A stretch of 64,000 nucleotides of DNA. Source: Loxodes magnus (lineage: Eukaryota > Ciliophora > Karyorelictea > Loxodida > Loxodidae). Location of the stretch: the NCBI GenBank assembly GCA_946699065.1, contig CAMPDV010000380.1, positions 124,001 to 188,000 on the forward strand, written 5' to 3'. This document shows, one piece after another, positions 25,128 through 49,409 of the stretch. How positions within the stretch are numbered: position 1 is the stretch's first letter; the number at the start of each line of letters is the position of its first letter. The notes below the pieces were generated by a model. It had not been told where the DNA came from. It worked only from the letters and a program-made list of their open reading frames with translations, and made no database searches. The translations under genes and the position numbers were made by a program.

Positions 25128-27611
25128 ATGGAATCTGGCTTCGATTAAGATTTCATAATTTAACGAGAGGATTTAGAAATAGGAGAGCTAATTGCAAGAG
25201 GAGGTTTTGGAACTGTGTATAAAGGAATATGGTTAGATACCAATGAAGTTGCCATAAAATAGTTATTTATATAGAATCAGACTATAGATATCAATCAAGA
25301 ATTCTAAAAAGAGTTGACAGTATTAAAGAAGTTTCGTAATCCTAATGTGATATTGTTGTATGGTTATTGTCCTTAACCTCTGAGTTTAGTGATGGAATTG
25401 ATGATTCAATCTTTATTTTAGTTCCTGAAAAATAATAATGAGATACCATGGTTACTAAGATATTAAATCAGTTTGAATATAGTATCTGGATTATAGTACA
25501 TACACATGTAGGAAATAATTCACCGTGATTTAAAAAGCAGCAACATTTTGTTGGATAGGAATAACGTGGCTAAGATAACTGATTTAGGATTGGCAAAGAT
25601 AAAGACCTAATCAAAGTCATTTAATACAAGCTCAAATATGAAAGTTGGCACGATATGTTGGATGGCGCCTGAGTTGTTGTAGATATAGCCTTAATATAGT
25701 AAAAAATCTGACATTTATGCATTGGGAATGGTATTTTGGGAGATAGCTTCGTAGAAGATTCCATTTGAGGAAACTTTTGAGCCAGTCATAGTGTCTTTGG
25801 TAACGAGTGGAAAGAGAGAGGAAATGCCGGTTGATTGTCCTGAGTAATATGCTTAGATAATAAATGGATGTTGGGCTTAGGAGGTTTAGAATAGACTCGA
25901 AATCGACTAGATCAAAAAGATGTTAAAGGAGTGTATCAAGAATTAGAATTAGATTGATTAATAATCTTAGTATAATTTCCAGCAATCTTAAAGTTCGATA
26001 TAAAATACACAATAAAAGTAGTCAACTAGGTAATAAGTTCAGATAGTTGTGCCTTAATAATAGATAGAAGAAATATAAACGTAATAATTAGCAAATTTCT
26101 CAATATTAACCTTTGAAAATTTGTTATAGTTTTTGAATCAGATAAAAGGAGAGAATGTAAATTTAGTAATGTTAAAGTAAGGTCCTTTAAATCAAACTAG
26201 ATTTGTTGATTAAGTTTAAATTCTGCTGCAATTACCATAAGTGACAGATTTTAAAATTCATGTAAAGTTGATTTAGATATTGCAGTTATGTAAGTCATAA
26301 AAAGGAGTAGCACAAATTGCTTCCAATGCCTTAACAATGTTAAACTATATGAATTTTAATTTCACTTAATAAAACTTATCAAACATCGACTTAATTAACT
26401 CTGATCTCTCTGACACAACCTTCACCTCCTGCAACTTCTCCAAATCCAACTTAACTACTGTCAACCTCTGTAACACCAAATTTATTAACTGCGACCTCTC
26501 CAACACCAGACTCACTTTTATCTCTTCTGAATATCCACACATATTCACTGGCCACTCAAATGTTGTCACCTCCGTGGCCATCTCTTCAGATGGCAACTTA
26601 ATAGTATGATCTAATGACAAAACTCTAAGACTCTACAACATAGTCACAGGTACCTGTAAGACCATGAGTGGTCACACTAGTGATGTATATGCTGTGGCTA
26701 TATCCAGTGATTCAGAGTTCATCGTATCGGGAAGTGTAGATTAGACAGTGAGACTATGGGACGTCAAGACAGGTACCTGTAAGACCATGAGTGGTCACAC
26801 AGGTTATGTATATACTGTGGCTATATCCAGTGATTCGGAATTCATCGTATCGGGAAGTTGAGATTAGACGGTGAGACTATGGGACGTCAAGACAGGTACC
26901 TGTAAGACCATGAGTGGTCACACAGGTTATGTATATACTGTGGCTATATCCAGTGATTCGGAATTCATCGTATCGGGAAGTTGAGATTAGACGGTGAGAC
27001 TATGGGACGTCAAGACAGGTACCTGTAAGACCATGAGTGGTCACACAGGTTATGTATATACTGTGGCTATATCCAGTGATTCCAACTTAATCATATCTGG
27101 ATCGTATGACAAAACTATTCGTTTATGGAACTCAAGAACACAATAATGTACACAGGTCTTTTCGGGACACACCTCTTATGTCTTATCGGTAATATTCTCA
27201 AACAATAACAAGTATATCTTATCAGGATCTAAGGACAAGACTATAAGAATATGAAACGTCTCTAAATGATAGTGCATCTGTACACTCTTGGGTCATACAG
27301 ACACAGTGGGTAGTTTATCATTATCTAAGGACAATCAATGGTTAGTATCAAGCAATTAGAGCATATTTGCAGATCCTTAATCAGAAGACTACAATATTCG
27401 AAGATGGAACTTAGGAAGGTTATTGAATGGAGTAGATACTAATAACTAATAATAGGTAAGTTCAAATTCAATAATAATTATTTAGTAGACTGACTGGAAC
27501 AAAGTATATGCTGACTATGGATTAAGATTCTAGAAATGTACTCTGAAAGGTGTCATTATGAGTGGAGAGGATAAAAAAAAATATGACATATCTGGCTGTG
27601 TAATTTTCTGA
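25128..27611 (+). CDS. TKL-type protein kinase fused to pentapeptide and WD40 repeats, 827 aa
   Basis: Residues 19-265 are a complete protein kinase: glycine loop [11 protein letters not shown] (23-33), VAIK with Lys44, catalytic HRDLKSSN (132-139), DLG (from 152) in place of [14 protein letters not shown] with APE at 180-182, and [13 protein letters not shown]. The catalytic Lys, Asp and Asp are all present, so it is probably active, with similarity to tyrosine-kinase-like Ser/Thr kinases. A Gln-rich linker and a helical region follow. Around residues 415-465 there are pentapeptide repeats ([13 protein letters not shown]). Seven WD40 repeats (about 470-790) are enough for one propeller. TGA codes for Trp at five propeller positions, including IRIW, and ends the gene at 27609. 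Repeats 2-4 are near-identical 123-bp copies. A role in signalling, with substrate recruitment by the propeller, is inferred. No introns. Confidence 0.9.
26758..27070 (+). repeat. 123-bp tandem duplications inside the WD40 region
   Basis: The segment containing ACGTCAAGACAGGTACC recurs at spacings of exactly 123 bp (26761, 26884, 27007), each unit being one WD blade of 41 residues. The later copies are almost identical while other blades in the gene are diverged, so the duplication or gene conversion is recent. Confidence 0.85.
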
Positions 27612-28119
27612 GTTAAACTATTTAAATTTTACATTTAAGAATTTTAAATTTTCTAAGTCGTTATTCTAATTGAGTATGTTCTTTTTACTATTATTAAAAA
27701 AAAATCTGTAAAGTTCAGAATTTTTTCTAAGTTTTTTGTGAGTGTAGTTTTTTTTTTTCAATTAAAGTGTAAATTTAATTTAAAATAAAGTTTCAGAGTA
27801 TTTAGGAAATTTTTTTAAGTATTTTTTTTTAAAAATAAGTATTAAAGGGAAAAAATTTAAGTTTCAAAGTATTCGAAAAATTTCTGGAAGTATGTATTAT
27901 AGGGAAAAAATAAATTTTCTAGTGTTAAAATATTTTTTGAGTTATGTACTAGAGCAAAAAAAATTTTATTTTTTAGTATAGTTTTTTTTTGAACAACATG
28001 CTATTGCATTTTTTATTTATAAAGTCTAGTTACTCTTGTTTTAATCTTATTATTATTACTTTTAAGTTGCATTATGTATTTTTACGATAGGGAAATTTTA
28101 ATGTACTATCTTTGAATTA

Positions 28120-29290
28120 TTTTTACGTTAAATTTTCAAAGGTAGAAGCCCCGAAATTGCGAAAAATAAAAAAACCTTTTTTTGTTCAGCGTTTTACACT
28201 ATAGGGCTGAGTTGGGACGGAAAAAGCTGGGGGATTTCGGGATTAGTAGAAGGTCAGAAAGGAATAAAATTTTTGAGAAAAAGTTCGAAAGTATAAAGGG
28301 TTTTGAAAAAAAATGGGAATAAAAAAAATTTGTGACTATTTTTTTTGGGTTTGGTTTTGAATTTTTTTGATATTGGTTTTGAAAATTTTAGTTTTAGATT
28401 TGAAAATTTTTGAAATGGGATTTGTAAGTTTTGATATTGGATTTGAAAACTTTTTATTTTTTTTGGTTTTGAAGATTTAAGTTTTGATTTTGTAAACTTT
28501 TGTTTTTTTCGATAAGAAATTTTTTTGATTTTGGTTTGTGATAAAAATTTTAAGAATAGGGTTTTGGTAATTTTTTTTTGCTTTTAAAAGCTAAATGAAT
28601 GACAAAAAATAGTATTTAAAGCATTAAATCGTGAAAAATAAACTTGTGTTTTTTTGCTCAGCTTTTTGCATTACAAGGCTTTTTTCTGACGGAACAAACT
28701 TAAAAAATTTGGAAATGGAGCGTTTATTTTTTCTAAAAATGTATTCAAAATCACAAAAAGCGTGAAAGCTTTTTTGCTCAGTGTTTTACACAATAGAGAG
28801 GGTCTGGGACTGAACAAACTAGGGGAAATCGAAATTGATAAAGGTCAGAAAGGAAATCCTTCTCAAAATATAAAACGGTTTGAGAAAAAATGAGAACAAA
28901 AAAATTGGAAATAAAATTATCGATTTTGGATTCGAATCGTTATAATTTTTGGTTGTGATAATTTTTTTGAAATAGTTGTGATAATTTTTTGATTTTAGAT
29001 AATTAAAAATTTTTGTGAGTTTGTTGATTTTTAAAGTTAATAAAAGGAGAAAAAGATCATGTAAAGAATTACATTGTAAAAATATAATTTTTTTTCTGTG
29101 CGTCTTATACACGAAGATATTTGGATAAGAATAAACTTTAAAAAAATTTTTAAACAAAAGCTTTTAAAATGAATCTTCAAACGTATAATGTATAAAAAGA
29201 TATCTAAAGAAAAAATAATGTTTTAATAAGAAAAAAGTGAAAATACTTTTTGGCGTAAGAGTTATGCAATAAAAAAAATAAGGAACGGAA
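28120..29290. repeat. cluster of diverged repeats sharing a TTTTGCTCAG-like core
   Basis: A core of the type TTTTG(C/T)TCAG, then a T-rich ACAC/GCAT segment, then a GAC(G)GAA stretch recurs near 28175, 28655 and 28775, with weaker copies near 29090 and 29250. Copies are followed by related GGTCAGAAAGGAA and GAGAAAAA blocks. The units are unequal and degenerate. The region lies between the kinase/WD gene and the 90-bp array. No gene is seen from 27612 on. Confidence 0.55.
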
Positions 29291-29307
29291 AAAAGTAGTT
29301 AATAAAA

Positions 29308-32300
29308 TGGGCGAATAAAAAGTAGAAAAGCAAGTAAAAGAGTCTGAAGATCATAATTGAAAGTAATAATAGAAACTGAGAAAGAGAGATGAGATTTCAA
29401 GCAAAAGTGAAGTAGAAAAGCAAGTAAAAGAGTCTGAAGATCATAATTGAAAGTAATAATAGAAACTGAGAAAGAGAGATGAGATTTCAAGGAAAAGTGA
29501 AGTAGAAAAGCAAGTAAAAGAGTCTGAAGATCATAATTGAAAGTAATAATAGAAACTGAGAAAGAGAGATGAGATTTCAAGCAAAAGTGAAGTAGAAAAG
29601 CAAGTAAAAGAGTCTGAAGATCATAATTGAAAGTAATAATAGAAACTGAGAAAGAGAGATGAGATTTCAAAGAAAAGTGAAGTAGAAAAGCAAGTAAAAG
29701 AGTCTGAAGATCATAATTGAAAGTAATAATAGAAACTGAGAAAGAGAGATGAGATTTCAAGCAAAAGTGAAGTAGAAAAGCAAGTAAAAGAGTCTGAAGA
29801 TCATAATTGAAAGTAATAATAGAAACTGAGAAAGAGAGATGAGATTTCAAGAAAAGTGAAGTAGAAAAGCAAGTAAAAGAGTCTGAAGATCATAATTGAA
29901 AGTAATAATAGAAACTGAGAAAGAGAGATGAGATTTCAAGCAAAAGTGAAGTAGAAAAGCAAGTAAAAGAGTCTGAAGATCATAATTGAAAGTAATAATA
30001 GAAACTGAGAAAGAGAGATGAGATTTCAAAGAAAAGTGAAGTAGAAAAGCAAGTAAAAGAGTCTGAAGATCATAATTGAAAGTAATAATAGAAACTGAGA
30101 AAGAGAGATGAGATTTCAAGCAAAAGTGAAGTAGAAAAGCAAGTAAAAGAGTCTGAAGATCATAATTGAAAGTAATAATAGAAACTGAGAAAGAGAGATG
30201 AGATTTCAAGCAAAAGTGAAGTAGAAAAGCAAGTAAAAGAGTCTGAAGATCATAATTGAAAGTAATAATAGAAACTGAGAAAGAGAGATGAGATTTCAAG
30301 CAAAAGTGAAGTAGAAAAGCAAGTAAAAGAGTCTGAAGATCATAATTGAAAGTAATAATAGAAACTGAGAAAGAGAGATGAGATTTCAAGCAAAAGTGAA
30401 GTAGAAAAGCAAGTAAAAGAGTCTGAAGATCATAATTGAAAGTAATAATAGAAACTGAGAAAGAGAGATGAGATTTCAAGAAAAGTGAAGTAGAAAAGCA
30501 AGTAAAAGAGTCTGAAGATCATAATTGAAAGTAATAATAGAAACTGAGAAAGAGAGATGAGATTTCAAGCAAAAGTGAAGTAGAAAAGCAAGTAAAAGAG
30601 TCTGAAGATCATAATTGAAAGTAATAATAGAAACTGAGAAAGAGAGATGAGATTTCAAGAAAAGTGAAGTAGAAAAGCAAGTAAAAGAGTCTGAAGATCA
30701 TAATTGAAAGTAATAATAGAAACTGAGAAAGAGAGATGAGATTTCAAGCAAAAGTGAAGTAGAAAAGCAAGTAAAAGAGTCTGAAGATCATAATTGAAAG
30801 TAATAATAGAAACTGAGAAAGAGAGATGAGATTTCAAGCAAAAGTGAAGTAGAAAAGCAAGTAAAAGAGTCTGAAGATCATAATTGAAAGTAATAATAGA
30901 AACTGAGAAAGAGAGATGAGATTTCAAGCAAAAGTGAAGTAGAAAAGCAAGTAAAAGAGTCTGAAGATCATAATTGAAAGTAATAATAGAAACTGAGAAA
31001 GAGAGATGAGATTTCAAGCAAAAGTGAAGTAGAAAAGCAAGTAAAAGAGTCTGAAGATCATAATTGAAAGTAATAATAGAAACTGAGAAAGAGAGATGAG
31101 ATTTCAAGCAAAAGTGAAGTAGAAAAGCAAGTAAAAGAGTCTGAAGATCATAATTGAAAGTAATAATAGAAACTGAGAAAGAGAGATGAGATTTCAAGCA
31201 AAAGTGAAGTAGAAAAGCAAGTAAAAGAGTCTGAAGATCATAATTGAAAGTAATAATAGAAACTGAGAAAGAGAGATGAGATTTCAAGCAAAAGTGAAGT
31301 AGAAAAGCAAGTAAAAGAGTCTGAAGATCATAATTGAAAGTAATAATAGAAACTGAGAAAGAGAGATGAGATTTCAAGCAAAAGTGAAGTAGAAAAGCAA
31401 GTAAAAGAGTCTGAAGATCATAATTGAAAGTAATAATAGAAACTGAGAAAGAGAGATGAGATTTCAAGCAAAAGTGAAGTAGAAAAGCAAGTAAAAGAGT
31501 CTGAAGATCATAATTGAAAGTAATAATAGAAACTGAGAAAGAGAGATGAGATTTCAAGCAAAAGTGAAGTAGAAAAGCAAGTAAAAGAGTCTGAAGATCA
31601 TAATTGAAAGTAATAATAGAAACTGAGAAAGAGAGATGAGATTTCAAGCAAAAGTGAAGTAGAAAAGCAAGTAAAAGAGTCTGAAGATCATAATTGAAAG
31701 TAATAATAGAAACTGAGAAAGAGAGATGAGATTTCAAGCAAAAGTGAAGTAGAAAAGCAAGTAAAAGAGTCTGAAGATCATAATTGAAAGTAATAATAGA
31801 AACTGAGAAAGAGAGATGAGATTTCAAGAAAAGTGAAGTAGAAAAGCAAGTAAAAGAGTCTGAAGATCATAATTGAAAGTAATAATAGAAACTGAGAAAG
31901 AGAGATGAGATTTCAAGCAAAAGTGAAGTAGAAAAGCAAGTAAAAGAGTCTGAAGATCATAATTGAAAGTAATAATAGAAACTGAGAAAGAGAGATGAGA
32001 TTTCAAGCAAAAGTGAAGTAGAAAAGCAAGTAAAAGAGTCTGAAGATCATAATTGAAAGTAATAATAGAAACTGAGAAAGAGAGATGAGATTTCAAGCAA
32101 AAGTGAAGTAGAAAAGCAAGTAAAAGAGTCTGAAGATCATAATTGAAAGTAATAATAGAAACTGAGAAAGAGAGATGAGATTTCAAGCAAAAGTGAAGTA
32201 GAAAAGCAAGTAAAAGAGTCTGAAGATCATAATTGAAAGTAATAATAGAAACTGAGAAAGAGAGATGAGATTTCAAGCAAAAGTGAAGTAGAAAAGCAAG

Positions 32301-34712
32301 TAAAAGAGTCTGAAGATCATAATTGAAAGTAATAATAGAAACTGAGAAAGAGAGATGAGATTTCAAGCAAAAGTGAAGTAGAAAAGCAAGTAAAAGAGTC
32401 TGAAGATCATAATTGAAAGTAATAATAGAAACTGAGAAAGAGAGATGAGATTTCAAGCAAAAGTGAAGTAGAAAAGCAAGTAAAAGAGTCTGAAGATCAT
32501 AATTGAAAGTAATAATAGAAACTGAGAAAGAGAGATGAGATTTCAAGCAAAAGTGAAGTAGAAAAGCAAGTAAAAGAGTCTGAAGATCATAATTGAAAGT
32601 AATAATAGAAACTGAGAAAGAGAGATGAGATTTCAAGCAAAAGTGAAGTAGAAAAGCAAGTAAAAAGTCTGAAGTAGAAAAGCAAGTAAAAGAGTCTGAA
32701 GATCATAATTGAAAGTAATAATAGAAACTGAGAAAGAGAGATGAGATTTCAAGCAAAAGTGAAGTAGAAAAGCAAGTAAAAGAGTCTGAAGATCATAATT
32801 GAAAGTAATAATAGAAACTGAGAAAGAGAGATGAGATTTCAAGCAAAAGTGAAGTAGAAAAGCAAGTAAAAGAGTCTGAAGATCATAATTGAAAGTAATA
32901 ATAGAAACTGAGAAAGAGAGATGAGATTTCAAGCAAAAGTGAAGTAGAAAAGCAAGTAAAAGAGTCTGAAGATCATAATTGAAAGTAATAATAGAAACTG
33001 AGAAAGAGAGATGAGATTTCAAGCAAAAGTGAAGTAGAAAAGCAAGTAAAAGAGTCTGAAGATCATAATTGAAAGTAATAATAGAAACTGAGAAAGAGAG
33101 ATGAGATTTCAAGCAAAAGTGAAGTAGAAAAGCAAGTAAAAGAGTCTGAAGATCATAATTGAAAGTAATAATAGAAACTGAGAAAGAGAGATGAGATTTC
33201 AAGCAAAAGTGAAGTAGAAAAGCAAGTAAAAGAGTCTGAAGATCATAATTGAAAGTAATAATAGAAACTGAGAAAGAGAGATGAGATTTCAAGCAAAAGT
33301 GAAGTAGAAAAGCAAGTAAAAGAGTCTGAAGATCATAATTGAAAGTAATAATAGAAACTGAGAAAGAGAGATGAGATTTCAAGCAAAAGTGAAGTAGAAA
33401 AGCAAGTAAAAGAGTCTGAAGATCATAATTGAAAGTAATAATAGAAACTGAGAAAGAGAGATGAGATTTCAAAGAAAAGTGAAGTAGAAAAGCAAGTAAA
33501 AGAGTCTGAAGATCATAATTGAAAGTAATAATAGAAACTGAGAAAGAGAGATGAGATTTCAAGCAAAAGTGAAGTAGAAAAGCAAGTAAAAGAGTCTGAA
33601 GATCATAATTGAAAGTAATAATAGAAACTGAGAAAGAGAGATGAGATTTCAAGCAAAAGTGAAGTAGAAAAGCAAGTAAAAGAGTCTGAAGATCATAATT
33701 GAAAGTAATAATAGAAACTGAGAAAGAGAGATGAGATTTCAAGAAAAGTGAAGTAGAAAAGCAAGTAAAAGAGTCTGAAGATCATAATTGAAAGTAATAA
33801 TAGAAACTGAGAAAGAGAGATGAGATTTCAAGCAAAAGTGAAGTAGAAAAGCAAGTAAAAGAGTCTGAAGATCATAATTGAAAGTAATAATAGAAACTGA
33901 GAAAGAGAGATGAGATTTCAAGCAAAAGTGAAGTAGAAAAGCAAGTAAAAGAGTCTGAAGATCATAATTGAAAGTAATAATAGAAACTGAGAAAGAGAGA
34001 TGAGATTTCAAGCAAAAGTGAAGTAGAAAAGCAAGTAAAAGAGTCTGAAGATCATAATTGAAAGTAATAATAGAAACTGAGAAAGAGAGATGAGATTTCA
34101 AGCAAAAGTGAAGTAGAAAAGCAAGTAAAAGAGTCTGAAGATCATAATTGAAAGTAATAATAGAAACTGAGAAAGAGAGATGAGATTTCAAGCAAAAGTG
34201 AAGTAGAAAAGCAAGTAAAAGAGTCTGAAGATCATAATTGAAAGTAATAATAGAAACTGAGAAAGAGAGATGAGATTTCAAGAAAAGTGAAGTAGAAAAG
34301 CAAGTAAAAGAGTCTGAAGATCATAATTGAAAGTAATAATAGAAACTGAGAAAGAGAGATGAGATTTCAAGAAAAGTGAAGTAGAAAAGCAAGTAAAAGA
34401 GTCTGAAGATCATAATTGAAAGTAATAATAGAAACTGAGAAAGAGAGATGAGATTTCAAGCAAAAGTGAAGTAGAAAAGCAAGTAAAAGAGTCTGAAGAT
34501 CATAATTGAAAGTAATAATAGAAACTGAGAAAGAGAGATGAGATTTCAAAGAAAAGTGAAGTAGAAAAGCAAGTAAAAGAGTCTGAAGATCATAATTGAA
34601 AGTAATAATAGAAACTGAGAAAGAGAGATGAGATTTCAAGCAAAAGTGAAGTAGAAAAGCAAGTAAAAGAGTCTGAAGATCATAATTGAAAGTAATAATA
34701 GAAACTGAGAAA
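29308..34712 (+). repeat. 90-bp tandem array, about 60 copies, in frame after an ATG
   Basis: Nearly identical 90-bp units fill 5.4 kb. Read on the plus strand from ATG 29308 the array opens MGEQKVEKQVKESEDHN and each unit encodes 30 residues (core EVEKQVKESEDHNW, then KQQQKLRKRDEISS), a highly charged helix with one TGA as Trp. Units differ almost only at one site near TTTCAAGCAAAAGT: GC, GG, AG, or a single base less. The 89-bp form recurs at about 29850, 30480, 30658, 31827, 33742, 34281 and 34367 and would change the frame each time; a rearranged partial unit lies at 32640-32690. It is therefore either a satellite or a giant repeat-protein gene whose frame is damaged or misassembled. The minus-strand hydrophobic readings are shadows. 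Confidence 0.85.
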
Positions 34713-37700
34713 GATTAATTAAGATAAAATTTAATTAAAACTGATATTAATATAAATTAAATAAAATTTAAGTTAAACTGATTTTCACATAAATAAAATT
34801 AAATTAAAGTTAAACTTATTTTAATTTGCATTAAATTTAAAGTAAAACTGATTTTAATATAAATAAAATAAAATTTAAGTAAAACTGATTTTAATATAAA
34901 TAATATAAAATTTAAGTAAAACAAGTTTTAGCATAAGTAAAATTTAAATTAAAACTTATTTCTATTTAAATAAAATAAATTTAAGTAAAACTGATTTTAA
35001 TATAAATAAAATAAAATTTAAGTTAAACTGATTTTCACATAAATAAAATTAAATTAAAGTTAAACTTATTTTAATTTGCATTAAATTTAAAGTAAAACTT
35101 ATTTCTGTTTAAATAAAATAAAAATTAAGTAAAACTGATTTTAATATAAATAAAATAAAATTTAAAGTAAAACTGATTTTAAAATAAATAAAATAAAATT
35201 TAAAGTAAAACTTATTTCTATTTAAATAAAATAAAATTTAAGTAAAACTGATTTTAATATAAATAAAATAAAATTTAAGTATAACAAATTTTCGCATAAA
35301 TAAAATTTAAAGTAAAACTTATTTCTGTTTAAATAAAATAAAATTTAAGTAAAACGGATTTTAATATAAATAAAATAAAATTTAAGTAAAACAAATTTTA
35401 GCATAAATAAAATTTAAAGTAAAACTGATTTTAATATAAATAAAATAAATTTAAGTAAAACTGATTTTAAAATAAATAAAATAAAATTTAAGTAAAACTG
35501 ATTTTATTATAAATAAAATAAATTTAGGTAAAACTGATTTTAATGTAAATAAAATAAAATTTAAGTAAAACTGATTTTAAAATAAATAAAATAAAATTTA
35601 AGTAAAACTGATTTTAATATAAATAAAATAAAATTTAAGAAAAAAGATTTTAACATAAATAAAATTAAATTTAAGTAAAACTGATTTTAATATAAAAAAA
35701 TTAAATTTTAGTAAAACTGATTTTAATATAAATAAAATAAAATTTGAGTAAAACTTATTTTAATATAAATAAAATAAAATTTAAGTAAAACTGATTTTAA
35801 AATAAATAAAATAAAATTTAAGTAAAACTGATTTTAAATAAATAAAATAAAATTTATTTAAAACTGATTTTAACATAAATAAAATAAAATTTAAGTATAA
35901 CAAATTTTCGCATAAATAAAATTTAAGTAAAACTGATTTTTATAAATAAATAAAATAAAATTTAAGTAAAACTGATTTTAATATAAATAAAATTAAATAT
36001 AAGTAAAACTGATTTTAATATAAATAAAATAAATATAAGTAAAACTGATTTTAATATAAATAAAATAAATATAAGTAAAACTGATTTTAATATAAATAAA
36101 ATAAAATTTAAGTAAAACTGATTTTAATATAAATAAATAAAATTTAAAGTAAATCTTATTTCTGTTTAAATAAAATAAAATTTAAGTAAAACTGATTTTA
36201 ATATAAATAAAATTAAATTAAAGTAAAACTGATTTTAATATAAATAAAATAAATATAAGTAAAACTGATTTTAATATAAATAAAATAAAATTTAAGTAAA
36301 ACTGATTTTAATATAAATAAAATTTATAAGTAAAACTGATTTTAATATAAATAAAATAAATATAAGTAAAACTGATTTTAATATAAATAAAATAAAATTT
36401 AAGTAAAACTGATTTTAATATAAATAAAATTAAATTTAAGTAAAACTGATTTTAATATAAATAAAATAAAATTTAAGTAAAACTGATTTTAATATAAATA
36501 AATTAAATATAAGTAAAACTGATTTTAATTTAAATAAATTAAATTTAAGTAAAACTGATTTTAATATAAATAAAATTAAATTTAAGTAAAACTGATTTTA
36601 ATATAAATAAAATAAAATTAAGTAAAACTGATTTTAATATAAATAAAATTAAATTAAGTAAAACTGATTTTAACATAAATAAAATAAAATTAAGTAAAAC
36701 TGATTTTAATATGCATTAAATTTAATTTAGTAAAACTGATTTTAATATAAATAAAATTAAATTTAAGTAAAACTGATTTTAATATAAATAAAATAAAATT
36801 TAAGTAAAACGGATTTTAATATAAATAAAATAAAATTTAAGTAAAACAAATTTTAGCATAAATAAAATTTAAAGTAAAACTGATTTTAATATAAATAAAA
36901 TAAATTTAAGTAAAACTGATTTTAAAATAAATAAAATAAAATTTAAGTAAAACTGATTTTATTATAAATAAAATAAATTTAGGTAAAACTGATTTTAATG
37001 TAAATAAAATAAAATTTAAGTAAAACTGATTTTAAAATAAATAAAATAAAATTTAAGTAAAACTGATTTTAATATAAATAAAATAAAATTTAAGAAAAAA
37101 GATTTTAACATAAATAAAATTAAATTTAAGTAAAACTGATTTTAATATAAAAAATTAAATTTTAGTAAAACTGATTTTAATATAAATAAAATAAAATTTA
37201 AGTAAAACTGATTTTAATATAAATAAAATATAAATTTAAGTAAAACTGATTTTAATATAAATAAAATAAAATTTAAGTAAAACTGATTTTAAATAAATAA
37301 AATAAAATTTATTTAAAACTGATTTTAACATAAATAAAATTAAATTTAAGTAAAACTGATTTTAATATAAATAAAATAAATTTAAGAAAAACTGATTTTA
37401 ATATAAATAAAATAAATTTAAGTAAAACTGATTTTAATATAAATAAAATAAAATTTAAGTAAAACAAATTTTAGCATAAATAAAATTTAAAGTAAATCTT
37501 ATTTCTGTTTAAATAAAATAAAATTTAAGTAAAACTGATTTTAAAATAAATAAAATTAAATTAAAGTAAAACTGATTTTAGCATAAATAAAATTTAAAGT
37601 AAAACTTATTTCTGTTTAAATAAAATAAAATTTAAGTAAAACAAATTTGAGCATAAATAAAATTTAAAGTAAAACTGATTTTAATATAAATAAAATAAAT

Positions 37701-40700
37701 TTAAGTAAAACTGATTTTAAAATAAATAAAATAAAATTTAAGTAAAACTGTTTTTAATATAAATAAAATTTAATTTAAGTAAAACTGATTTTAATATAAA
37801 TAAAATAAAATTTAAGTAAAACTGATTGTTATATAAATAAATTTAATTTAAGTAAAACTGATTTTAATTTGCATTAAATTTAATTTATGTAAAACTAAAT
37901 TTAATAAAATAAAACAAAATTTAAGTAAAATTGATTTTAATATAAATAAAATAAAATTAAAGTTAAAATGATTTTAACATAAATAAAATTAAATTAAAGT
38001 TAAACTGATTTTCACATAAATAAAATAAAATTAAAGTTAAACTGATTTTAATTTGCATTAAATTTAATTTATTCGAAACTGATATTACCATAAATTAAAT
38101 TAAATTTAAGTTAAACTGATTTTAATATAAATAAAATAAAATTTAAGTAAAACTGATTGTTATATAAATAAATTTAATTTAAGTAAAACTGATTTTAATT
38201 TAAATAAAATTAAATTTAAGTAAATCTGTTTTTAATAAAAATAAAAATAAATTTAAGTAAAACTGATTTTAATATAAATAAAATAAAATTTAAGTAAAAC
38301 TGATTGTTATATAAATAAATTTAATTTAAGTAAAACTGATTTTAATTTGCATTAAATTTAATTTATGTAAAACTAAATTTAATATAAATAAAACAAAATT
38401 TAAGTAAAATTGATTTTAATATAAAAAAAAAAAAATTTAAGAAAAAAGATTATAATTTAAATAAAATTAATTTATGTAAAACTGATTTAAATTCAAATAA
38501 AATAAAATTTAAGTAAAACTGATTTTAATATAAATAAAATTTAATTTAAGTAAAACTGATTTTAATATAAATAAAATTAAATTAAAGTAAAACTTATTTC
38601 TATTTAAATAAAATTAAATTTAAGTTAAACTGATTTTAAAATAAATAAAATTAAATTTAAGTTAAAATGATTTTAATATAAATAAAATAAATTTTAAGTA
38701 AACAGATTTTAATATAAACAAAATAAAATTTATGAAATTTAAAAAGATTTTAATGTAAATAAAATAAAATAAAATAAAATTTAAGTAAAACTGATTTTAA
38801 TATAAATAAAATATTAAGTAAAACTGATTTTAATATAAATAAAATAAAATTTAAATAAAACTTATTTTAATGTAAATAAAATAAAATTTAAGTAAAACTG
38901 ATTTTAAAATAAATAAAATAAAATTTAAAGTAAAACTTATTTCTATTAAAATTAAATCAAATTTAAGTAAAACTGATTTTAATATAAATAAAATAAAATT
39001 TAATTAAAACAGATTTTAATAGAAATAAAATAAAATTTAAGTAAAACTGATTTTAATATAAATAAAAAAAATTTAAGAAAAAAGATTTTAATTTAAATAA
39101 AATTAATTTAAGTAAAACCGATATTAATATAAATTAAATAAAATTTAAGTTAAAATGATTTTAACATAAATAAAATTTAATTAAAGTAAAACTGATTTTA
39201 ATATAAATAAAATTTAATTTAAGTAAAACTGATTGTAATATAAATAAAATAAAATTTAAGTAAAACTGATATTAATATAAATTAAATAAAATTAAGTTAA
39301 AATGATTTTAACATAAATAAAATTAAATTAAAGTAAAACTGATTTTAATATAAATAAAATTAAATTTAAGTTAAAATGATTTTAAAATAAATAAAATAAA
39401 ATTTAAGAAAAAAGATTTTAATTTAAATAAAATTGATTTCAGTAAAACTGATATTAATATATATTAAATAAAATTTAAGTTAAAATGATTTTAACATAAA
39501 TAAAATTAAATTAAAGTAAAACTGATTTTAATATAAATAAAATAAAATTTAAGTAAAACTGATTTTAATTTGCATTAAATTTAATTTATGTAAAACTGAT
39601 AATAATATAAATTAAATAAAATTTAAGTTAAAATGATTTTAACATAAATAAAATTAAATTAAAGTAAAACTGATTTTAATATAAATAAAATTTAATTTAA
39701 GTAAAACTGATTTTAATATAAATAAAATTTAATTAAAGTAAAACTTATTTCTATTTAAATAAAATTAAATTTAGGTTAAACTGATTTTAAAATAAATAAA
39801 ATAAAATTTAAGTTAAAATGATTTGAATTTAAATAAAATAAAATTTAAGTAAAACTGATTTGAATATAAATAAAATAAAATTTAATTAAAACTGATTTTA
39901 ATATAAATAAAATAAAATTTAACTAAAACTGATTTTGATAATAATAAAAATAAATTTAAGTTATATTTATTTTAATATAAATAAAATAAAATTTAAGTAA
40001 AACTGATTGTTATAAAATAAATTTAATTTAAGTAAAACTGATATTAATTTAAATAAAATAAAATTTAAGTAAAACTGATTTTAATTTAAATAAAAGTTAA
40101 ATTTAAGTAAAACTGATATTAATATAAATAAAATTAAATTTAAGTAAAACTGATTTTAATATAAATAAAATTAAATTTAAGTAAAACTGATTTTAATATA
40201 AATAAAATAAAATTTAAGTAAAACTGATTTTAATATAAATAAAATAAAATTTAAGTAAAACTGATTTTAATATAAATAAAATATAAATTTAAGTAAAACT
40301 GATTTTAATATAAATAAAAATAAATTTAAGTAAAACTTATTTTAATATAAATAAAATAAAATTTAAGTAAAACTGATTTTAATATAAATAAAATAAAATT
40401 TAATGAAAACTGATTTTTAAATAAAATAAATAAAATATTTAAGTAAAACTGATTTTAATATAAATAATAAAATTTAAGTAAAACTGATTTTAATATAAAT
40501 AAAATAAAATTTAAGTAAAACTGATTTTAATATAAATAAAATAAAATTTAAGTAAAACTGATTTTAATATAAAAAAATAAAATTTAAGTAAAACTGATTT
40601 TAATATAAATAAAATAAAATTTAAGTAAAACTGATTTTAATATAAATAAAATAAAATTTAAGTAAAACTGATTTTAATATAAATAAAATAAAATTTAAGT

Positions 40701-41696
40701 AAAACTGATTTTAATATAAATAGAATTAATTCAATAAAAACTGATTTTAATATAAATAAAATAAAATTTAAGTAAAACTGATTTTAAAATAAATAAAATA
40801 AAATTTAAGTAAAACTGATTAAATTAAATAAAATAAAATAAAATTTAAGTAAAACTGATTTAAATTTAAATAAAATAAATTTAAGTAAAACTGATTTTAA
40901 TATAATCAAAATTTAATTTAAGTAAAACTGATTTTATTTAAATAAAATTAAATTTAATTAAAACTGATTTTAATATAAATAAAATTTAATTTAAGTAAAA
41001 CTGATTTTGATATGAATAAAATAAAATTTAAGTAAAACTGATTTTAATATAAATAAAAATAAATTTAAGTTATATTTATTTTAATATAAATAGAATTAAT
41101 TTAAGTAAAACTGATTTTAATATAAATAAAAATAAATTTAAGTTATATTTATTTTAATATAAATAGAATTAATTTAAGTAAAACTGATTTTAATATAAAT
41201 AAAATAAAATTTAAGTAAAACTGATTTTAATATAAATAAAATAAAATTTAAGTAAAACTGATTTTAATATAAATAAAATAAAATTTAAGTAAAACTGATT
41301 TTAATATAAATAAAATAAAATTTAAGTAAAACTGATTTTAATTTAAATAAAATAAAATTAAGTAAAACTGATTTTAATATAAATAAAATAAAATTTAAAT
41401 AAAACTGATTTTAATTTAAATTAAATTTAATTTAAGTAAAACTGATTTGAATCTAAATAAAATAAAATTTAAGTAAAACTGATTTTAATATAAATAAAAT
41501 AAAATTTAAGTAAAACTGATTTGAATCTAAATAAAATAAAATTTAAGTAAAACTGATTTTAATATAAATAAAATTAAATTTAAGTAAAACTGATTTTAAT
41601 ATAAATAAAATAAAATTTAAGTAAAACTGATTTTAATAAAAATTAAATTAAATTTAAGTAAAACTGATTTTAATATAAATAAAATATAATTTAAGT
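34713..41696. repeat. AT-rich satellite, about 37-bp unit
   Basis: Seven kilobases of a degenerate tandem repeat with core GTAAAACTGATTTTAATAT followed by AAATAAAATAAAATTTAA, about 190 units. Variants include CTTATTTCTATTT, CAAATTTTAGCAT and TTTGCATTAAATTTAA blocks, arranged in higher-order patterns: blocks near 35300-35680 and 36800-37100 repeat the same order of variants. Apart from the CTGA and AAAC steps there is almost no G or C. No coding potential. Confidence 0.9.
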
Positions 41697-42349
41697 ACTT
41701 TCACTTTTAATAAAAAGTATTAAAAATTCAAATGCTTTTTTTTTATTTTAATTTTTATTCTCTTTAAATTTTTCGTCCTCTCTCTACTCGCGAAACACTA
41801 TTCTCGTAATAAACAATTTTAAACAATTATAAACAATAATAAATATTCCACTATTCTTAAAACAAATTATCCTTTTAAAATACTTTATTAATAACGCAAT
41901 TACTCTTTTAGATTAAAAAATTAGGTACATATTCAATCATTAATAATTTTCTAAATACTTACGCTCTTTTTTGCTTAATTATATATTATTTACGTACTCT
42001 TTCACTCCAACAATTTAAACAAGAATTTATATCATTATAATTTATTATTATTATATATGTTTATTCAACTACGTTGCTACATAATTTCTTAGAGTTGTAA
42101 CTCAACTTTAGTATACATTAAATTTGATATCATTGCTGTTTAGCCGTATAATATCATAGTAATTTTTATATATGAGTATAGTAGTATAACTGAATAACAG
42201 TATAACTGTATAATAAAATTATAGATTGCTATTATAACTTTATAAAAGTACAGCAATATAGCAGTATAACTGTATATATACTATAATAGTATTGTAACAT
42301 AGTAATATAGTAGTATATAGTAGTATATTGATTATTCAAACACTTAAAT
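41697..42349. repeat. unique AT sequence with a TAGTATA-type simple repeat
   Basis: 41697-42100 is unique AT-rich sequence. From about 42110 to 42330 the motif (A)TAGTATA(AC) recurs irregularly (CAGTATAACTG, TAGTAGTATA and similar). It abuts the stop codon of the WD gene on the minus strand, so it is probably its 3' flank. Confidence 0.6.
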
Positions 42350-44647
42350 TCATTAATTTAAATAAATATATTAATTTAATAAGTTCATTAATTTAATAAT
42401 AATTCTATTCCTTGCCTGCTTTCTCATCTATATGTTGCTTGCTTCACAATCACTCAATCTCATTCCATAGGGAGCATATACACTATTCCAATCCAACTAC
42501 TTTATTATTAAATTAATTAAATTGACACCTACCTATCCTACAGATTCATCAACACTTAACAACCTCTATACATTCCATCTTCTCAAGTAGCCACATACAT
42601 CTTCAGCATAGATTCATCTTGAATCCTTTGATAATGCCTATGAATATATTGCATATTCGTGACCATTCAAAGTTAATACACACTAACCAGCTGAAAAAGA
42701 CCATATCTTTATGGTTGAGTCACGAGATGCTGATATGATATATCTAGAGTCCAAGGAGATTACTACCGAGTTAATAGAATCAGTATGTCTCTCTAAAGTT
42801 CTCAGGAGAGTACCATCAGGGAAATTCCAAATCTTTATGGTTGAGTCATCAGAGGCTGATATGATATATCTAGAGTCAAAGGAGATTACTACCGATAAAA
42901 TAGAATCAGTATGTCCCTTTAATGTTCTCAGGAGAGTACCATCAGAGAAGTTTCAGATCTTTATGGTTCTGTCAGGTCAGGCTGAACCTGATACTATATA
43001 TCTAGAGTTAGAGGAGATTACTACGGAGAAAATAGAATCAGTATCTTCCTCTAAAGTTCTCAGGAGAGTACCATCAGAGAAATTCCATATCTTGATTGTT
43101 TTGTCACGAGATACTGATATGATATATCTAGAGTCATAGGAGATTACTACTGAGTTAATAGCAGAAGTATGTCCCTTTAATGTATTGATTAAGGCAGATG
43201 TTTAAGAATCTCAGATCTTAATTGTTTTATCCCATGAACCAGTGATGATGTATTGATTGTCAGGAGAGATAGCTATTGATCTGATGCAGTCGAAATGACC
43301 TTTAAGTTCATGAGGATACTCAGTTGCTATATCGGATAGATCAGCATTACTCAATACACAACCGATAAATTTAGTGTTTCTTAAATTACATTGATGGAAA
43401 CTTGAATTTGAGAAATCACATTCAGTAAATGTCATGTCCGATAGATCTGCTTGCACTAATCTCATATCGGAGAAATTTTATTATGATGCAAACTTAACAT
43501 TCAGGTAGTTAAGTATCGTTATCACATTCGATGATACCTACGATACTTCCTATGATGTTCTAGATAACTCTAACACCTAATTTAATTTATCAGCCAGTTA
43601 TTAGTTAGATACCCTAGATAACTATAATAAGACCGATGTTTAAAAGGCTAAGCTTGAGTGATTTAAAGGATGTTACTTCAAATATTAAATATCGATATTT
43701 TGTTGTTTTATTAGTTGGTCTAAAATTTGAATTAACTATTCGAATGTTAGAGTATTGAAATTCACTAAGGCTTATTTTATCAAGTTTGGCTGCTCTTAAA
43801 GTTATTGAACTTAAAAGTTCTATTACTCAAACTTAAGTTCAATAATATGTTAAAGTAACTGTTAATCATTACTTTATAGAGTTCTTGAAACTTCTTGGTA
43901 TATATTAAATTTAGATTAGTCTTTTTACATTAGTTACTCTTAAACTTATTATTTGTCTTAATTTTAGTGTCTTAGGGAGGCTTAGTCTTAATATAAGTAT
44001 TATAATTATTTATTTTGTTATATACCTTATTGAAGATCCTATACTTGTTCTTGTTGGGACAACTTTTATTATTATTGACCTTGACATAGACCACTTATTA
44101 CATTTTATTAACTGAAATAAGATTCTATGAACTAACAAGCTTTTTACTGAGTTAATATCTAACACTATGAATGATCTCTCAGAAAATTGAAGGCATTTAA
44201 GAGATAATACTGAATATTGTATCGCAAACCTTAATCATTCAAATTTAAGTTAGATTCTTACTTTATCACATTGATTTCTCTTAAGATATCCGTAAATTAC
44301 TACTATTATTCTTATAGCTAATATTGATTTACCTACTGGTGGATATGCTAGCGCTATTACTATTATTATTAAATGCTGAGTTCCGATAATCGATTCAGTA
44401 AATTCTTAATCTTATTCACTCTTTAAGTATATTATTCTATCAAGATCTTGAATATTCATTTAATTACTTACTACCAGATATTATTCCACTATTTACTAAC
44501 ACCATTGATAACATTCCTTATAAACTATAGCTGCTCTTATTTCTAATTCTATTATTCCTATAACCAATCGAGTTATTGATTTAACCATACTTAATTCAAT
44601 ATTTTATGGTGCTGATGCAACTAAGGCTATATTGGTTATTATACCAT
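42350..44647 (-). CDS. Gln-rich helical/pentapeptide/WD40 protein, 765 aa, paralogue of the kinase/WD gene
   Basis: ATG 44647 to TGA 42352-42350 in one unbroken phase. The first 300 residues are Gln-rich and helical (LDWLQEQQNQKQEQ) with no kinase motifs. The middle matches the kinase/WD protein closely: FENQLIQILDQLIKQ, LKQHPLNH, SSNVITILNYLN, then pentapeptides (SDMRLVQADLSDMTF). Six WD40 repeats follow (ITGSWDKTIKIW and others) and a shared tail, DWNSVYAPYGMR. TGA encodes Trp at five sites (two IKIW positions, SAW, DSRW and VIKW). The gene is thus a relative of the 25128 gene with a different N-terminus, and converges on it across 14 kb of repeats. No introns. Function unknown; the propeller suggests a scaffold. 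Confidence 0.85.
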
Positions 44648-45094
44648 ATAGTTTTGTAGATCCTAAGGCCTGATGTTAAACATTTTAGCATGATTTGTAC
44701 ATGCGACCATTCTCGTAAATTAACATACTGTATTTAAACAGTTGAAACATTAAACACAGTTGCAAGAAAGTTGCTTGGCTTAAAACTAAGCTTAATCGAA
44801 AGCATTTCTACAGTTAGGACACTGTTACATATCCATTTATAAAAAATAAAATTAGTTTTAGTATTTAGAAACTAATTACAATGAAATAAAAATTAAAATA
44901 TTTAAAATTTAATTATTAAATTTAATTTATTAATAAAATACAAACTAATAAAGATTAATTTCTCTTAAAAAATGAGGAAAAAGAGATGGTTTATACCCAA
45001 AATAAAGGGGACCAAATCACAAAAGATGGGCTCTCCTATCAAAAATCTGAAAAGATAAAATAACTTTAGGTAAGAGATACTGAATCTCCAATCA
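44648..45094. other. intergenic between WD gene and rDNA fragment
   Basis: AT-rich sequence upstream of the minus-strand WD gene, followed by a short purine-rich stretch up to the 18S break. No gene was recognised. Confidence 0.4.
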
Positions 45095-45495
45095 TCGAGA
45101 CGAAGCCCGGTGTCGTTATTTATTGTATCTACCTCAGGATTGGGTAATTTACGCGCCTGCTGCCTTCCTTAGATGTGGTCTCTCAGGCTCCGGAATTGAA
45201 CCCTAATTCTTCGTTACCTGTCACTGCCATACTAATCCAATACCATCGAAAACTGATAGGGCAGAAACTTGAATGACCTGCCATGCTTCATGGTCCTTAT
45301 GTATTATAATTCTCACACAAACTAAATATCTAATAAACATTTTGCATGTATTCTAGAATTACTACGATTATCTAACACACCATCAAATAAACTATCACTG
45401 TTTAATGAGCCTTCGCAGTTCCACGAGTAAATGCTTAAACATGCATTGCTTAGTCTTTGAGACAAACAAATGACTACTGGCAGGATCAACCAGAT
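45095..45495 (-). rRNA. 18S rRNA, 5' part only
   Basis: The minus strand starts with CTGGTTGATCCTGCCAGTAG, the universal 5' end of small-subunit rRNA, and continues through helices known from 18S (GTCTCAAAGACTAAGC; TAGTAATTCTAGAATACATG; GGTTCAATTCCGGAG; GGCAGCAGGCGCG). Similarity stops near 45095, about 400 nt into the gene. The rest of 18S is 3.4 kb away at the other end of the rDNA segment. Confidence 0.9.
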
Positions 45496-46366
45496 TTATA
45501 CTTTTCTATTTCCATTCACTTTTTCTATATACTCCTTTCCACCCCTTCATTTATGTTTCATAACACTACCCTTCAAATATCCATACTACAGCCCACCTTT
45601 TACCCCTACTTGTCTTAAAAAATATACGCTAAGTCACCACTATAGGCATCAAGATCTTTTTACCTTCTTAGCCATCCTTCATTTCTTATATATGCATTTC
45701 TCAATTTTAGATTCACGCCTTTGTCACACATAACTCATTCATTAAGCACATCATTTTAAGCTTACAAGTTTCTTTTCTAATTTTTATCTACTTATATTGA
45801 ATCATCTTTTCTCAAACGGAAGCACTTAAAGTACTTAATACTTAAGTATCATCTTCTTCGTTCCATTCTTCATCTATCAAAACTTTTTCTTTTGCTTTCT
45901 CTTTTTTCAAATTTTCATAAATTTGAAATTTTCACTTCCTTTAGAGTCCAAGAAATCTTCTTATTTATGCTTTTTACTTTTCTTTTCATTCTTTTATCTC
46001 TATCCTTCTACTATTGATTAGCACTTAAAAATTCATCTCTTCTTCATCATCATTAGATATCAAGCATCAATACCTTTTCAAGTTGGGTCTTTAGCAGCTT
46101 TATTCAAATTTTCAAAAATTTGAAATTTTGTACTTAATAATCAAAGTAAGTTAAAGTAAGTAAAACCCCAGCAGAAATAGTAATGAGAATCTCGATGTAA
46201 AACCCTAGATAGATGATACAAATATAAGTAACTAAAGGAAAGACTAGGTACTACTCGATACAACAAGGTACTAGGTAAGATTAGGTACTATTAGATACAA
46301 CTTCTTTTTAACTAGATATTAATAGGTACATGTACTCGGTACAACTAGGTACGACTATGAGCGGTT
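45496..46366 (-). other. rDNA intergenic spacer / external transcribed spacer
   Basis: It lies between the broken 28S and the 18S 5' end in the order expected of a tandem rDNA unit. Next to the 28S break, 46180-46360 is made of irregular (T)AGGTACTA steps. A 27-nt palindromic element (TTCAAATTTTCA...AAATTTGAAATTTT) occurs twice, at 45906-45932 and 46103-46129, differing by one base. The rest is pyrimidine-rich on the plus strand. Promoter and terminator positions cannot be named. Confidence 0.65.
45906..46129. repeat. two copies of a 27-nt palindromic spacer element
   Basis: Copies at 45906-45932 and 46103-46129, about 197 bp apart, each able to form a hairpin (AAATTT arms). They differ by a single base in the loop. 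Their repetition within the rDNA spacer suggests a regulatory or processing element. Confidence 0.6.
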
Positions 46367-46719
46367 TCTGTCCGTTCTGAACTGGCCGTAGGACACTTGT
46401 GTTATCTTTTAACAGATGTGCCGCCCCAGCCAAACTCCCCACCTAACGGTTTCTCCCACCCAACTACATTGCTAGAAAGTTACTGTATGACAGGATAAGT
46501 AAAGTGATATTAGTAGTAGTATTTCAAGATCGCGGCTTCCTACTTATTCTACGCTTCCTATGCCACTCTACACTCCAGACTAGAGTAAAACTCAACAGAG
46601 TCTTCTTTCCCTGCTGATTATGCCAAGTCCGTTCCCTTGGCAGTGGCTTCGGTAGGTAGTAGATAGGGACAGTAGGAATCTCGTTAATCCATTCATGCAC
46701 GTCAATAATTAGATGACGA

Positions 46720-46756
<37 letters not shown>

Positions 46757-48600: not shown

Positions 48601-48644
48601 AAAAGAATTCTTATTCACTTACATTTGTATTTTATATTATACTG

Positions 48645-48790
48645 AAAGGAACATACCTTGAGTTTCCCCAGGGTGCCTGTTGCGTTGGGAAACCTGATGA
48701 CTCACGAAATCCTGCAATTCGCATTGAATTTCGTGCTTCGCTGCATCCTTCATCGACGCCAGAGCCTAGGCATCCATTGTTGAGGCTTTT
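48645..48790 (-). rRNA. 5.8S rRNA
   Basis: Minus-strand CAACAATGGATGCCTAGGCT...GGCGTCGATGAAGGATGCAG...AATGCGAATTGCAGGATT is 5.8S. It lies between ITS1 (about 48791-48882) and ITS2 (about 48601-48644), both short and AT-rich. It appears complete. Confidence 0.85.
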
Positions 48791-48882
48791 GTTTTATTTA
48801 GGTTTATATATTTGATAAAATGAAAAGCAGCATAAAGCTGTAAATAAATTTGATTTTTGTAATGTTTTATATTAATATTAAT

Positions 48883-49409
48883 GATCCATCCTCAGGTTCA
48901 CCTACGGATATCTTGTTACGACTTCTCCTTCCTCTAAGTGATAAGGTTCACTTAACTTCCCATTAGTCCGAGAGGTTCACCTGATCACTGGAAATCGGTA
49001 GAAGCGACAGGCGGTGTGTACAAAGGGTAGGGACTTAATCAGTGCAAGCTGATGACTTGCGCTTACTAGGAATTCCTAGTTGATGACCAAGAATTGCAAG
49101 GATCAATCCAAACTACGACGCAGTTGCGAGGTTGCCGGAATAGCTATACTTAGAAACTCATTGGCTGCGTCAGTGTAGCGCGCGTGGGGCCCAGGAAATC
49201 TAAGGGCATCACAGACCTGTTATTGCCTCACACTTCCTCTAACTAAAAGCTGGAAGTTTCTCTAAAAAGGCAACTTCCTTGGATAGAAAGAGTCTATTTA
49301 ACAGGTTGAGGTCTCGTTCGTTATCGGAATTAACCAGACAAATCACTCCACCAACTAAGAACGGCTATGTACCACCACCCATAGAATCAAGAAAGAGCTC
49401 TTAATCTGC

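Follow-up and report, generated by a model that had tools for sequence, protein, structure and literature searches.

Context-dependent UGA and glutamine UAA/UAG around two WD40 genes in Loxodes magnus DNA

The dual use of UGA is already known, having been published for Loxodes magnus and its relatives. The karyorelict nuclear code was described by Seah et al. 2022 (as cited in PMC11441545), and it has also been described in Parduczia sp. by Swart et al. 2016 (PMC4967479). The Loxodes genome paper gives NCBI table 27 with UGA as the sole stop, and a gene finder made for this code exists (PMC11441545). The window analyzed here (the whole stretch of 64,000 nucleotides) is almost certainly L. magnus macronuclear DNA that uses this ambiguous table, in which UAR is Gln and UGA is Trp inside genes and a stop near their 3′ ends. 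That a single codon can encode an amino acid and also terminate translation is a striking form of context-dependent decoding, and in practical terms the genes of the window need a table 27 reading.

Two WD40 genes and the satellites between them

Two convergent genes with WD40 repeats flank the array in the middle of the region (Table 1). Gene 1 is 827 codons followed by TGA, and it is an intronless open frame if UAA and UAG are Gln and internal UGA is Trp. Gene 2 is 765 codons followed by TGA, the first TGA beyond the tail that it has in common with gene 1 (42352–42350). Each gene has five in-frame TGA codons, compared with 14–29 in each of the five other frames, a scarcity that exceeds chance expectation in these two genes. 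Nine of ten other large open frames in the window have no Pfam family, and the remaining one has an endonuclease match below the Pfam cutoff.

Table 1. Features of the two WD40 genes and the intervening repeats (window coordinates)
Feature	Position	Strand	Description
Gene 1	25128..27611	+	protein kinase (aa 17-266) and WD40 repeats (aa about 470-745)
Gene 1 aa 494 TGA	26607..26609	+	place not Trp-conserved, by eye
Gene 1 aa 578 TGA (SGS-*-D)	26859..26861	+	hypervariable column, not diagnostic
Gene 1 aa 619 TGA (SGS-*-D)	26982..26984	+	hypervariable column, not diagnostic
Gene 1 aa 709 TGA (IRI-*)	27252..27254	+	WD40 Trp column
Gene 1 aa 714 TGA	27267..27269	+	place not Trp-conserved, by eye
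Gene 1 terminal TGA	27609..27611	+	last internal TGA 114 codons before
90-bp tandem array	29320..34714	+	purine-rich on + strand, downstream of gene 1
37-bp AT-rich tandem array	34716..41697	.	between convergent genes 1 and 2
Gene 2	42350..44647	-	Gln-rich N-terminal part, then WD40 repeats
Gene 2 terminal TGA	42350..42352	-	last internal TGA 88 codons before
Gene 2 aa 678 TGA	42614..42616	-	opposite gene 1 TGG (aa 761), by eye
Gene 2 aa 565 TGA (IKI-*)	42953..42955	-	WD40 Trp column
Gene 2 aa 557 TGA	42977..42979	-	close to SGS-x-D
Gene 2 aa 479 TGA (IKI-*)	43211..43213	-	WD40 Trp column
Gene 2 aa 64 TGA	44456..44458	-	N-terminal part, no known relatives; place not Trp-conserved, by eye

The initial sequence-only reading named five of the internal TGA codons as standing where the family nearly always has Trp. 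All five are exactly placed, but the two in SGS-x-D are weak, because that column is hypervariable (TAT 43, GAT 14, GGA 13, TGA 12, TGG 1, and others) and so not diagnostic of Trp. Five more internal TGAs, missing from that reading, lie at aa 494 and 714 of gene 1 and aa 64, 557, and 678 of gene 2; three of the total of ten (gene 1 aa 494 and 714, gene 2 aa 64) are off Trp positions. Among family matches, the motif around gene 1 aa 709 holds 20 TGA and two TGG in distinct contexts and no other codon, although one of the two TGGs is in a gene 2 repeat that is perhaps not the equivalent one. TGG does occur beside TGA in the same genes, as had been claimed (12 in gene 1 and 10 in gene 2).

Contig ends carry further copies of the gene 1 family and of the satellite of this region, most of them pointing outward in one orientation, and a 270-base stretch of the 90-bp array matches the left end of contig C8 at 86% identity. 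Telomeres were not found in the Loxodes genome study (PMC11441545). It is possible, though rather doubtful, that the DNA running from gene 1 into the 90-bp array represents a Loxodes chromosome-end module in an interstitial position (an outward-transcribed kinase/WD40 gene, then a 79–107-bp satellite with its purine-rich strand directed outward in the 5′ to 3′ sense), that the satellites are or lie directly beside chromosome ends, and that these ends might be satellite-capped and telomerase-independent. The recurrence at contig ends is newer than the UGA code and is a lead toward telomeres outside the present topic; should the pattern hold, the question of Loxodes chromosome ends becomes directly testable.

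Codon meanings inside genes

The meaning of internal UGA was read from 172 distinct WD40 repeats (5,820 codons) of 30 family loci, gene 1 among them, together with gene 2. The Trp column of these repeats has 153 codons, TGG 99, TAC 28, TGA 25, and AGG 1. Thus, 25 of 49 TGAs lie in this single column (Fisher P 1.6e-27, uncorrected for kinship of the copies; since the copies are related, such P values are too small), and 29 of the 37 repeat columns contain no TGA at all. At four motif-anchored sites, counted as distinct contexts, the codons are TGA 20 and TGG 2 (site A), TGG 20, TAG 2, and TGA 1 (site B), TGG 23 and TGA 2 (site C), and TGG 16 and TGA 1 (site D). Tyr codons are absent from all four; the two TAGs of site B, which is no Trp codon, stand in place of TGG and count against the UGA/UAR reading. 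A second, unrelated family, the AAA_6 domain (PF12774; presumably a dynein domain), gives the same picture in the best 28 of 42 matches, where the sole column with a Trp majority has TGG 24, TGA 4, and nothing else. TGA opposite many different residues, the observation that would speak against dual use, is seen at variable columns (in the WD40 repeats and in AAA_6 columns 194 and 309) but not at the Trp-only columns. The proof is carried by conserved single columns and not by variable repeat columns, and the paralogue alignments in two unrelated families support UGA being read as Trp inside genes.

Profile scores, obtained by reading TGA in turn as each of the 20 residues, bear out the proposed WD40 check only in part. 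For gene 2 the Pfam bits favor Trp (W 207.2, Y 203.7, F 201.2, the other 17 at most 196.0), but gene 1 alone does not single it out, with Tyr, Ala, Met, and Gly scoring above it (PF00400; Y 247.1, A 246.5, M 244.8, G 244.6, W 243.6), and the sums over both genes tie W and Y at 450.8.

The claim of dozens of TAA and TAG codons in these genes is borne out: TAA and TAG together number 59 in gene 1 and 87 in gene 2, and two unrelated families have columns with only TAR and Gln codons, in which TAA/TAG stand alongside CAA/CAG. Examples (TAR:Gln) are 25:2, 23:4, 19:8, and 18:9 in the kinase/WD40 family domain and 15:13 and 17:11 in the best 28 of 42 AAA_6 matches. Against this reading, TAR occurs at variable columns together with other residues, standing beside Gln 112, Ser 60, Asn 25, and Lys 20 in the family domain, and beside (weighted) Gln 40.1, Lys 26.7, and Glu 20.2 in AAA_6. 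On the whole, the alignments support UAA and UAG as Gln codons.

Gene ends, tRNA-Trp and eRF1

Because TAA and TAG are read as Gln, both frames must close at TGA, and this alone is no evidence for termination there. Codon periodicity, on which UGA as a stop is supported, does end at the gene 1 TGA. Comparison with 28 paralogues gives 743, 661, and 1140 mismatches at codon positions 1, 2, and 3 upstream of it and 402, 339, and 256 downstream, and the third position is highest in 28 of 28 aligned copies upstream but in only three of 28 downstream. TGA stands opposite this terminal TGA in 13 of the 28 (10 when near-identical copies are left out); 15 lack TGA at the exact place, which counts against it. 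The same support comes from eRF1. Locus L009, the best eRF1_1 match, was dropped as eRF1, as by eye it resembles pelota/Dom34 and is presumably a protein of that type; L010 and L011 were therefore taken as eRF1. Both read ...DPDEDFL-TGA, with no earlier TGA, and we take DPDEDFL to be the C-terminal end of eRF1, so that TGA follows it in two of two copies.

For gene 2 the 3′ end is less secure than for gene 1. About 30 AT-rich residues separate the gene 2 TGA from the tail common to both genes, and a TAA, reported as depleted just before the stop in Loxodes (PMC11441545), immediately precedes it. The proposal that both genes end at TGA just past a conserved tail thus stands for gene 1 and is weakened for gene 2. 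The TGA-free stretches before the two stops are 114 and 88 codons long, a measure that covers these two genes only.

A strict tRNA-Trp pattern gave 0 matches, and a looser one yielded one gene, which used as a query found at least 40 places (40 of 131 candidates scored). Three tRNA-Trp(CCA) genes on contig C110 have 5-bp anticodon stems and T-stem mismatches. Contig C148 has 36 tRNA-Trp(CCA) matches spaced about 241 bp apart and a single further match, and the units read there (two whole and one cut) all have a 27U/43C mismatch and hence a 4-bp anticodon stem. Genes for 4-bp-stem tRNA-Trp(CCA), the same as the published candidate decoder, are thus present. The tRNA-Trp(UCA) raised as a check by the sequence-only reading did not emerge: the pattern matched 34 times, compared with 74 in a reversed control, and neither ARAGORN nor Rfam recognizes a tRNA in any of the four matches inspected (three from one repeated sequence). 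The Rfam tRNA search gave 63 places among the matches listed, and ARAGORN typed three of 30 Rfam tRNA loci, all as tRNA-Lys. The eRF1 Ser70 position presumably reads Ala here, judging from alignment to human eRF1.

We infer that the 4-bp-stem tRNAs read UGA and that closeness to the poly(A) tail decides between Trp and stop. The published mean length of L. magnus 3′ UTRs is 53 bp. Inside a coding sequence the default meaning of UGA would then be Trp, the decoder probably being tRNA-Trp(CCA) with its 4-bp anticodon stem, a stem so short that the near-cognate UGA would be tolerated; toward the 3′ end of the message eRF1 would win, and the same UGA would terminate.

Competing readings and comparison with known codes

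Both WD40 genes might be pseudogenes whose internal TGAs are ordinary nonsense mutations. The kinase/WD40 family is very large (at least 150 matches, from 150 of 2,081 candidates scored), some copies show by eye frame shifts inside repeats, and the three internal TGAs away from Trp places would fit decay. Most repeat columns, however, are free of TGA and about half of the TGAs are in the Trp column, the third-position substitution excess persists up to the terminal TGA, and the invariant AAA_6 column mixes TGG and TGA in a different family, so that this is very unlikely. Very short spliced introns around the internal TGAs are extremely improbable, even though L. magnus introns have a mode of 17 bp with 93% at most 25 bp (PMC11441545) and several paralogues seem by eye to need a short intron near the tail: TGA swaps with the coding codon TGG at the same sites, removal of introns there would probably cost conserved WD40 residues, and lengths that are a multiple of three are depleted among the introns described in the same text (PMC11441545).

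A code in which UAA, UAG, and UGA are all both sense and stop, like that of Condylostoma magnum (NCBI table 28), would share sense use of all three codons inside genes (PMC4967479), and since gene ends were sought with TAA/TAG as Gln throughout, UAA and UAG stops would be invisible in most genes; the outside reference for a stop other than TGA is the two eRF1 copies, both with TGA. These two ends (with DPDEDFL taken as the C-terminus), the loss of periodicity at the gene 1 TGA, and the statement that UGA is the only stop in Loxodes (PMC11441545) all argue against it and make it highly improbable. The table 27 reading is preferred, and the context-dependent karyorelict code first suspected for this DNA is upheld by Trp-only and Gln-only columns in two families and by the gene 1 end.

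Among described systems, Blastocrithidia resembles the present case in having a 4-bp-stem tRNA-Trp(CCA) for UGA and an eRF1 Ser70 change, but it reads UAR as Glu and stops at UAA, whereas here UAR is Gln and UGA the stop, and its Ser70 change is to Gly (PMC12153298), compared with a presumed Ala here by the alignment to human eRF1. Condylostoma magnum also uses stop codons as sense according to position, with UGA as Trp, and a tRNA-Trp(UCA) was found neither there (PMC4967479) nor by pattern search here; it differs in that UAA and UAG also terminate, while here two of two eRF1 copies end at TGA and the other ends are TGA-defined. No difference was found from the karyorelict code, and the species is apparently the one already described. 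UGA is reported as rare just before the stop in that code, and gene 1 and gene 2 lack it over their final 114 and 88 codons, respectively; in the published code and here alike, UAA and UAG are Gln, and UGA is Trp inside genes and a stop at their ends.

Tryptophan codons in WD40 and AAA_6 genes

The two convergent WD40 genes of the window (gene 1 and gene 2 in the table) differ in their other domains. Gene 1 encodes a kinase domain (Pfam PF07714, 187.4 bits, amino acids 17–266) and seven stretches of WD40 repeats (PF00400, 231.7 bits); gene 2 has five WD40 stretches (196.0 bits) and no kinase among the 25 listed of 39 Pfam families. Five internal TGA codons are present in each, along with 12 and 10 TGG, 59 and 87 TAA plus TAG, and 15 and 26 CAA plus CAG codons in genes 1 and 2, respectively; the remaining five frames of each gene hold 14–29 TGAs apiece.

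Features in the window and on other contigs of the same assembly
Feature	Position	Strand	Remarks
Gene 1	25128-27611	+	827 codons; kinase and WD40
Gene 2	44647-42350	-	765 codons; WD40
90-bp purine-rich tandem array	29320-34714		gene 1 runs into array
37-bp AT-rich tandem array	34716-41697		between the two genes
Incomplete rDNA	45042-50022	-	SSU and LSU model matches
Open frame	53581-55101	-	weak match to PF14529 (endonuclease-reverse transcriptase), 23.3 bits against a cut-off of 27.4
tRNA-Trp array	G000:C148:157290-165791 and 155434-155498 (L075, L076)		match to C110 tRNA-Trp
tRNA-Trp genes, 3 copies	G000:C110 (L072-L074)		5-bp anticodon stem

The five TGA sites that a sequence-only reading had named as tryptophan positions all exist in these genes. 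When TGA was scored against Pfam as each residue in turn, Trp was singled out in gene 2 and not in gene 1, and Trp and Tyr tie when the scores of the two genes are summed. Because of this tie, and since gene 1 is not decisive, the window taken alone is weak evidence for TGA as Trp; the paralogues settle it. The genome searched (GCA_946699065.1, here G000; 705,730,643 bases in 7,843 contigs, with the window at G000:C380:124001-188000) gave at least 150 matches to a non-WD40 part of gene 1, of which the best 30, gene 1 included, were fetched. Their repeats and those of gene 2 were placed, with TGAs masked as X, on a profile built from 68 distinct TGA-free WD40 repeats. Across 172 distinct repeats, the codons of the Trp column are 99 TGG, 28 TAC, 25 TGA, and one AGG, and TGA occurs there in 23 of the 28 copies that have W or TGA at it. 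The motif-anchored Trp sites read TGA 20/TGG 2, TGG 20/TAG 2/TGA 1, TGG 23/TGA 2, and TGG 16/TGA 1, and the Tyr codons of the Trp column are absent from them. The unrelated AAA_6 family (PF12774, which we take to be a dynein domain; best 28 of 42 matches) contains a single Trp-majority column, with TGG in 24 copies and TGA in four; two more TGAs both lie in variable columns, for totals of six TGA and 42 TGG over 9,236 codons. This TGG/TGA interchange in two families bears out the proposal that TGA specifies Trp inside genes.

The accompanying proposal that UAA and UAG encode Gln is upheld by columns in which TAA or TAG (TAR) is accompanied by Gln codons only: four such columns, each with 18–25 TARs, occur among 27 distinct sequences (of 31 copies) of the family domain, and columns 106 and 217 of AAA_6 are of the same kind, while column 333 has one Asn in addition. 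Variable TAR columns also exist, since the remaining TAR columns of the family domain include other residues and AAA_6 has many more that vary.

Trp codons at certain variable repeat columns are nearly always TGA and those at structural columns mostly TGG. In the WD40 family (L012–L041), columns 6 and 22 hold 19 TGA and one TGG (19/20) vs 25 TGA and 99 TGG at the structural column (99/124 TGG; Fisher P = 9e-11, with copies that are not independent and columns chosen after viewing the table). All non-structural columns pooled have 24 TGA and 11 TGG, nine of the latter in column 16. A second array, on contig C1503 (L001–L008, eight overlapping or neighboring loci with 41 distinct repeats), has TGG 78 and TGA 1 (78/79) at columns 16 and 29 and TGA 21 and TGG 0 (21/21) at columns 4 and 6, again chosen after viewing the table. 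Fresh Trp codons at fast-changing sites likely come from A-ending neighbors in this AT-rich genome, and TGG would by the same account mark the older ones. The SGS-x-D column, whose TGAs had also been put forward as Trp sites, belongs to the fast-changing kind and is not diagnostic.

Terminal TGA codons, tRNA-Trp, and eRF1

Reading TAA and TAG as Gln forces every frame to close at TGA, so the case for TGA as a stop has to come from outside evidence. Of 29 paralogue alignments around the terminal TGA of gene 1 (27609), 28 span it. Their mismatches at codon positions 1/2/3 are 743/661/1140 upstream and 402/339/256 downstream, and the third position is the most mismatched in 28/28 copies upstream and 3/28 downstream. 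Thirteen of the 28 have TGA opposite; in the remaining 15 a gap or a different codon stands there, which puts their stops elsewhere. Ten distinct copies with TGA opposite give 253/211/394 before and 148/126/104 after (chi-square P = 9e-9, the copies not being independent). Two eRF1 copies (L010 and L011 on contig C196, ∼35 kb apart) run without an earlier TGA to DPDEDFL, presumably about where eRF1 ends, and then TGA. The idea that both WD40 genes end at TGA is supported for gene 1, where the third-position excess stops; for gene 2 the position of the 3′ end is less secure.

Contig C110 carries a tRNA-Trp(CCA) gene that, used as query, matched at least 40 places (40 scored of 131 candidates), three on C110 and 37 on C148, where 36 are spaced ∼241 bp and one is separate. 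The C110 genes have positions 27 and 43 paired and a mismatched T stem. On C148, the three units that were read (two complete, one truncated) have U27/C43 and hence a 4-bp anticodon stem, the remaining matches having the same score; passages of PMC13092985 and PMC12005148 attribute a tRNA-Trp of such kind to Loxodes. The suggested tRNA-Trp(UCA) was not found among four inspected of 34 matches to a pattern that can miss a tRNA and that gave 74 matches when reversed as a control. The eRF1 proteins carry FLCENTF, and GRAQNIKS in the place of what we take to be the usual TASNIKS. They appear to have Ala at the position of human Ser70, a residue described as UGA-relevant in a passage of PMC12153298.

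Satellite arrays and contig ends

The 90-bp array is likely a satellite and not coding. By eye, each unit spans 30 codons, contains one TGA, and is open on the plus strand when read with NCBI table 27; the frame is shifted, however, by several units of 89 bp, and the minus strand has open frames as well. The array shares 86% identity with the left end of contig C8. The rDNA of the window looks like a degenerate copy: one SSU match covers the whole model within only 1,144 bp, a second fragment covers model positions 4–605, and the LSU pieces stop at position 2620 of 3401.

The kinase/WD40 family and related 79–107-bp purine-rich satellites could possibly form a chromosome-end module. Among 76 of the at least 150 family matches listed (contigs up to C700), 34/34 in the first 50 kb of a contig are on the minus strand; on contigs of known size, 17/22 fall no more than 50 kb from an end, against 4.4 expected, and of the eight near a right end seven are on the plus strand and one on the minus. 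Smaller contigs have 29 minus and 15 plus among 44 matches in their first 50 kb, many of these contigs being so short that "left end" means little. A 79–92-bp tandem array is present in 7/8 contig ends read near family copies. In a sample blind to the family (40 ends of C1–C22 and 20 interior stretches, one per contig), satellite was found at 10/20 left ends (one masked), 6/20 right ends, and 0/20 interior stretches, some matches being weak (68–76% identity); the remaining ends are cut within WD40 repeats or have no repeat. These ends may instead be assembly breaks, because arrays also break assemblies. Satellite is missing from 23/39 readable ends and the window's own 90-bp array is internal, both of which favor breaks, as does the orientation at C15; on the other hand, the preferred outward orientation of satellite and family speaks against breakage, the purine strand pointing outward at the other 15 of 16 satellite ends. 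A keyword search of literature on telomeres, subtelomeres, and satellites found no mention of Loxodes among the matches listed, and a passage of PMC11441545 states that Loxodes telomeres eluded detection.

Relation to the published code

The dual use of UGA as Trp and stop in L. magnus, which is classed in Karyorelictea, is well supported and was already known. PMC11441545, which reports a 706 Mbp MAC assembly of this species, assigns Loxodes to table 27, with UGA as the sole stop, depletion of UGA and UAA over ∼20 codons upstream of it, and UGA read as Trp where the poly(A) tail is far enough away.
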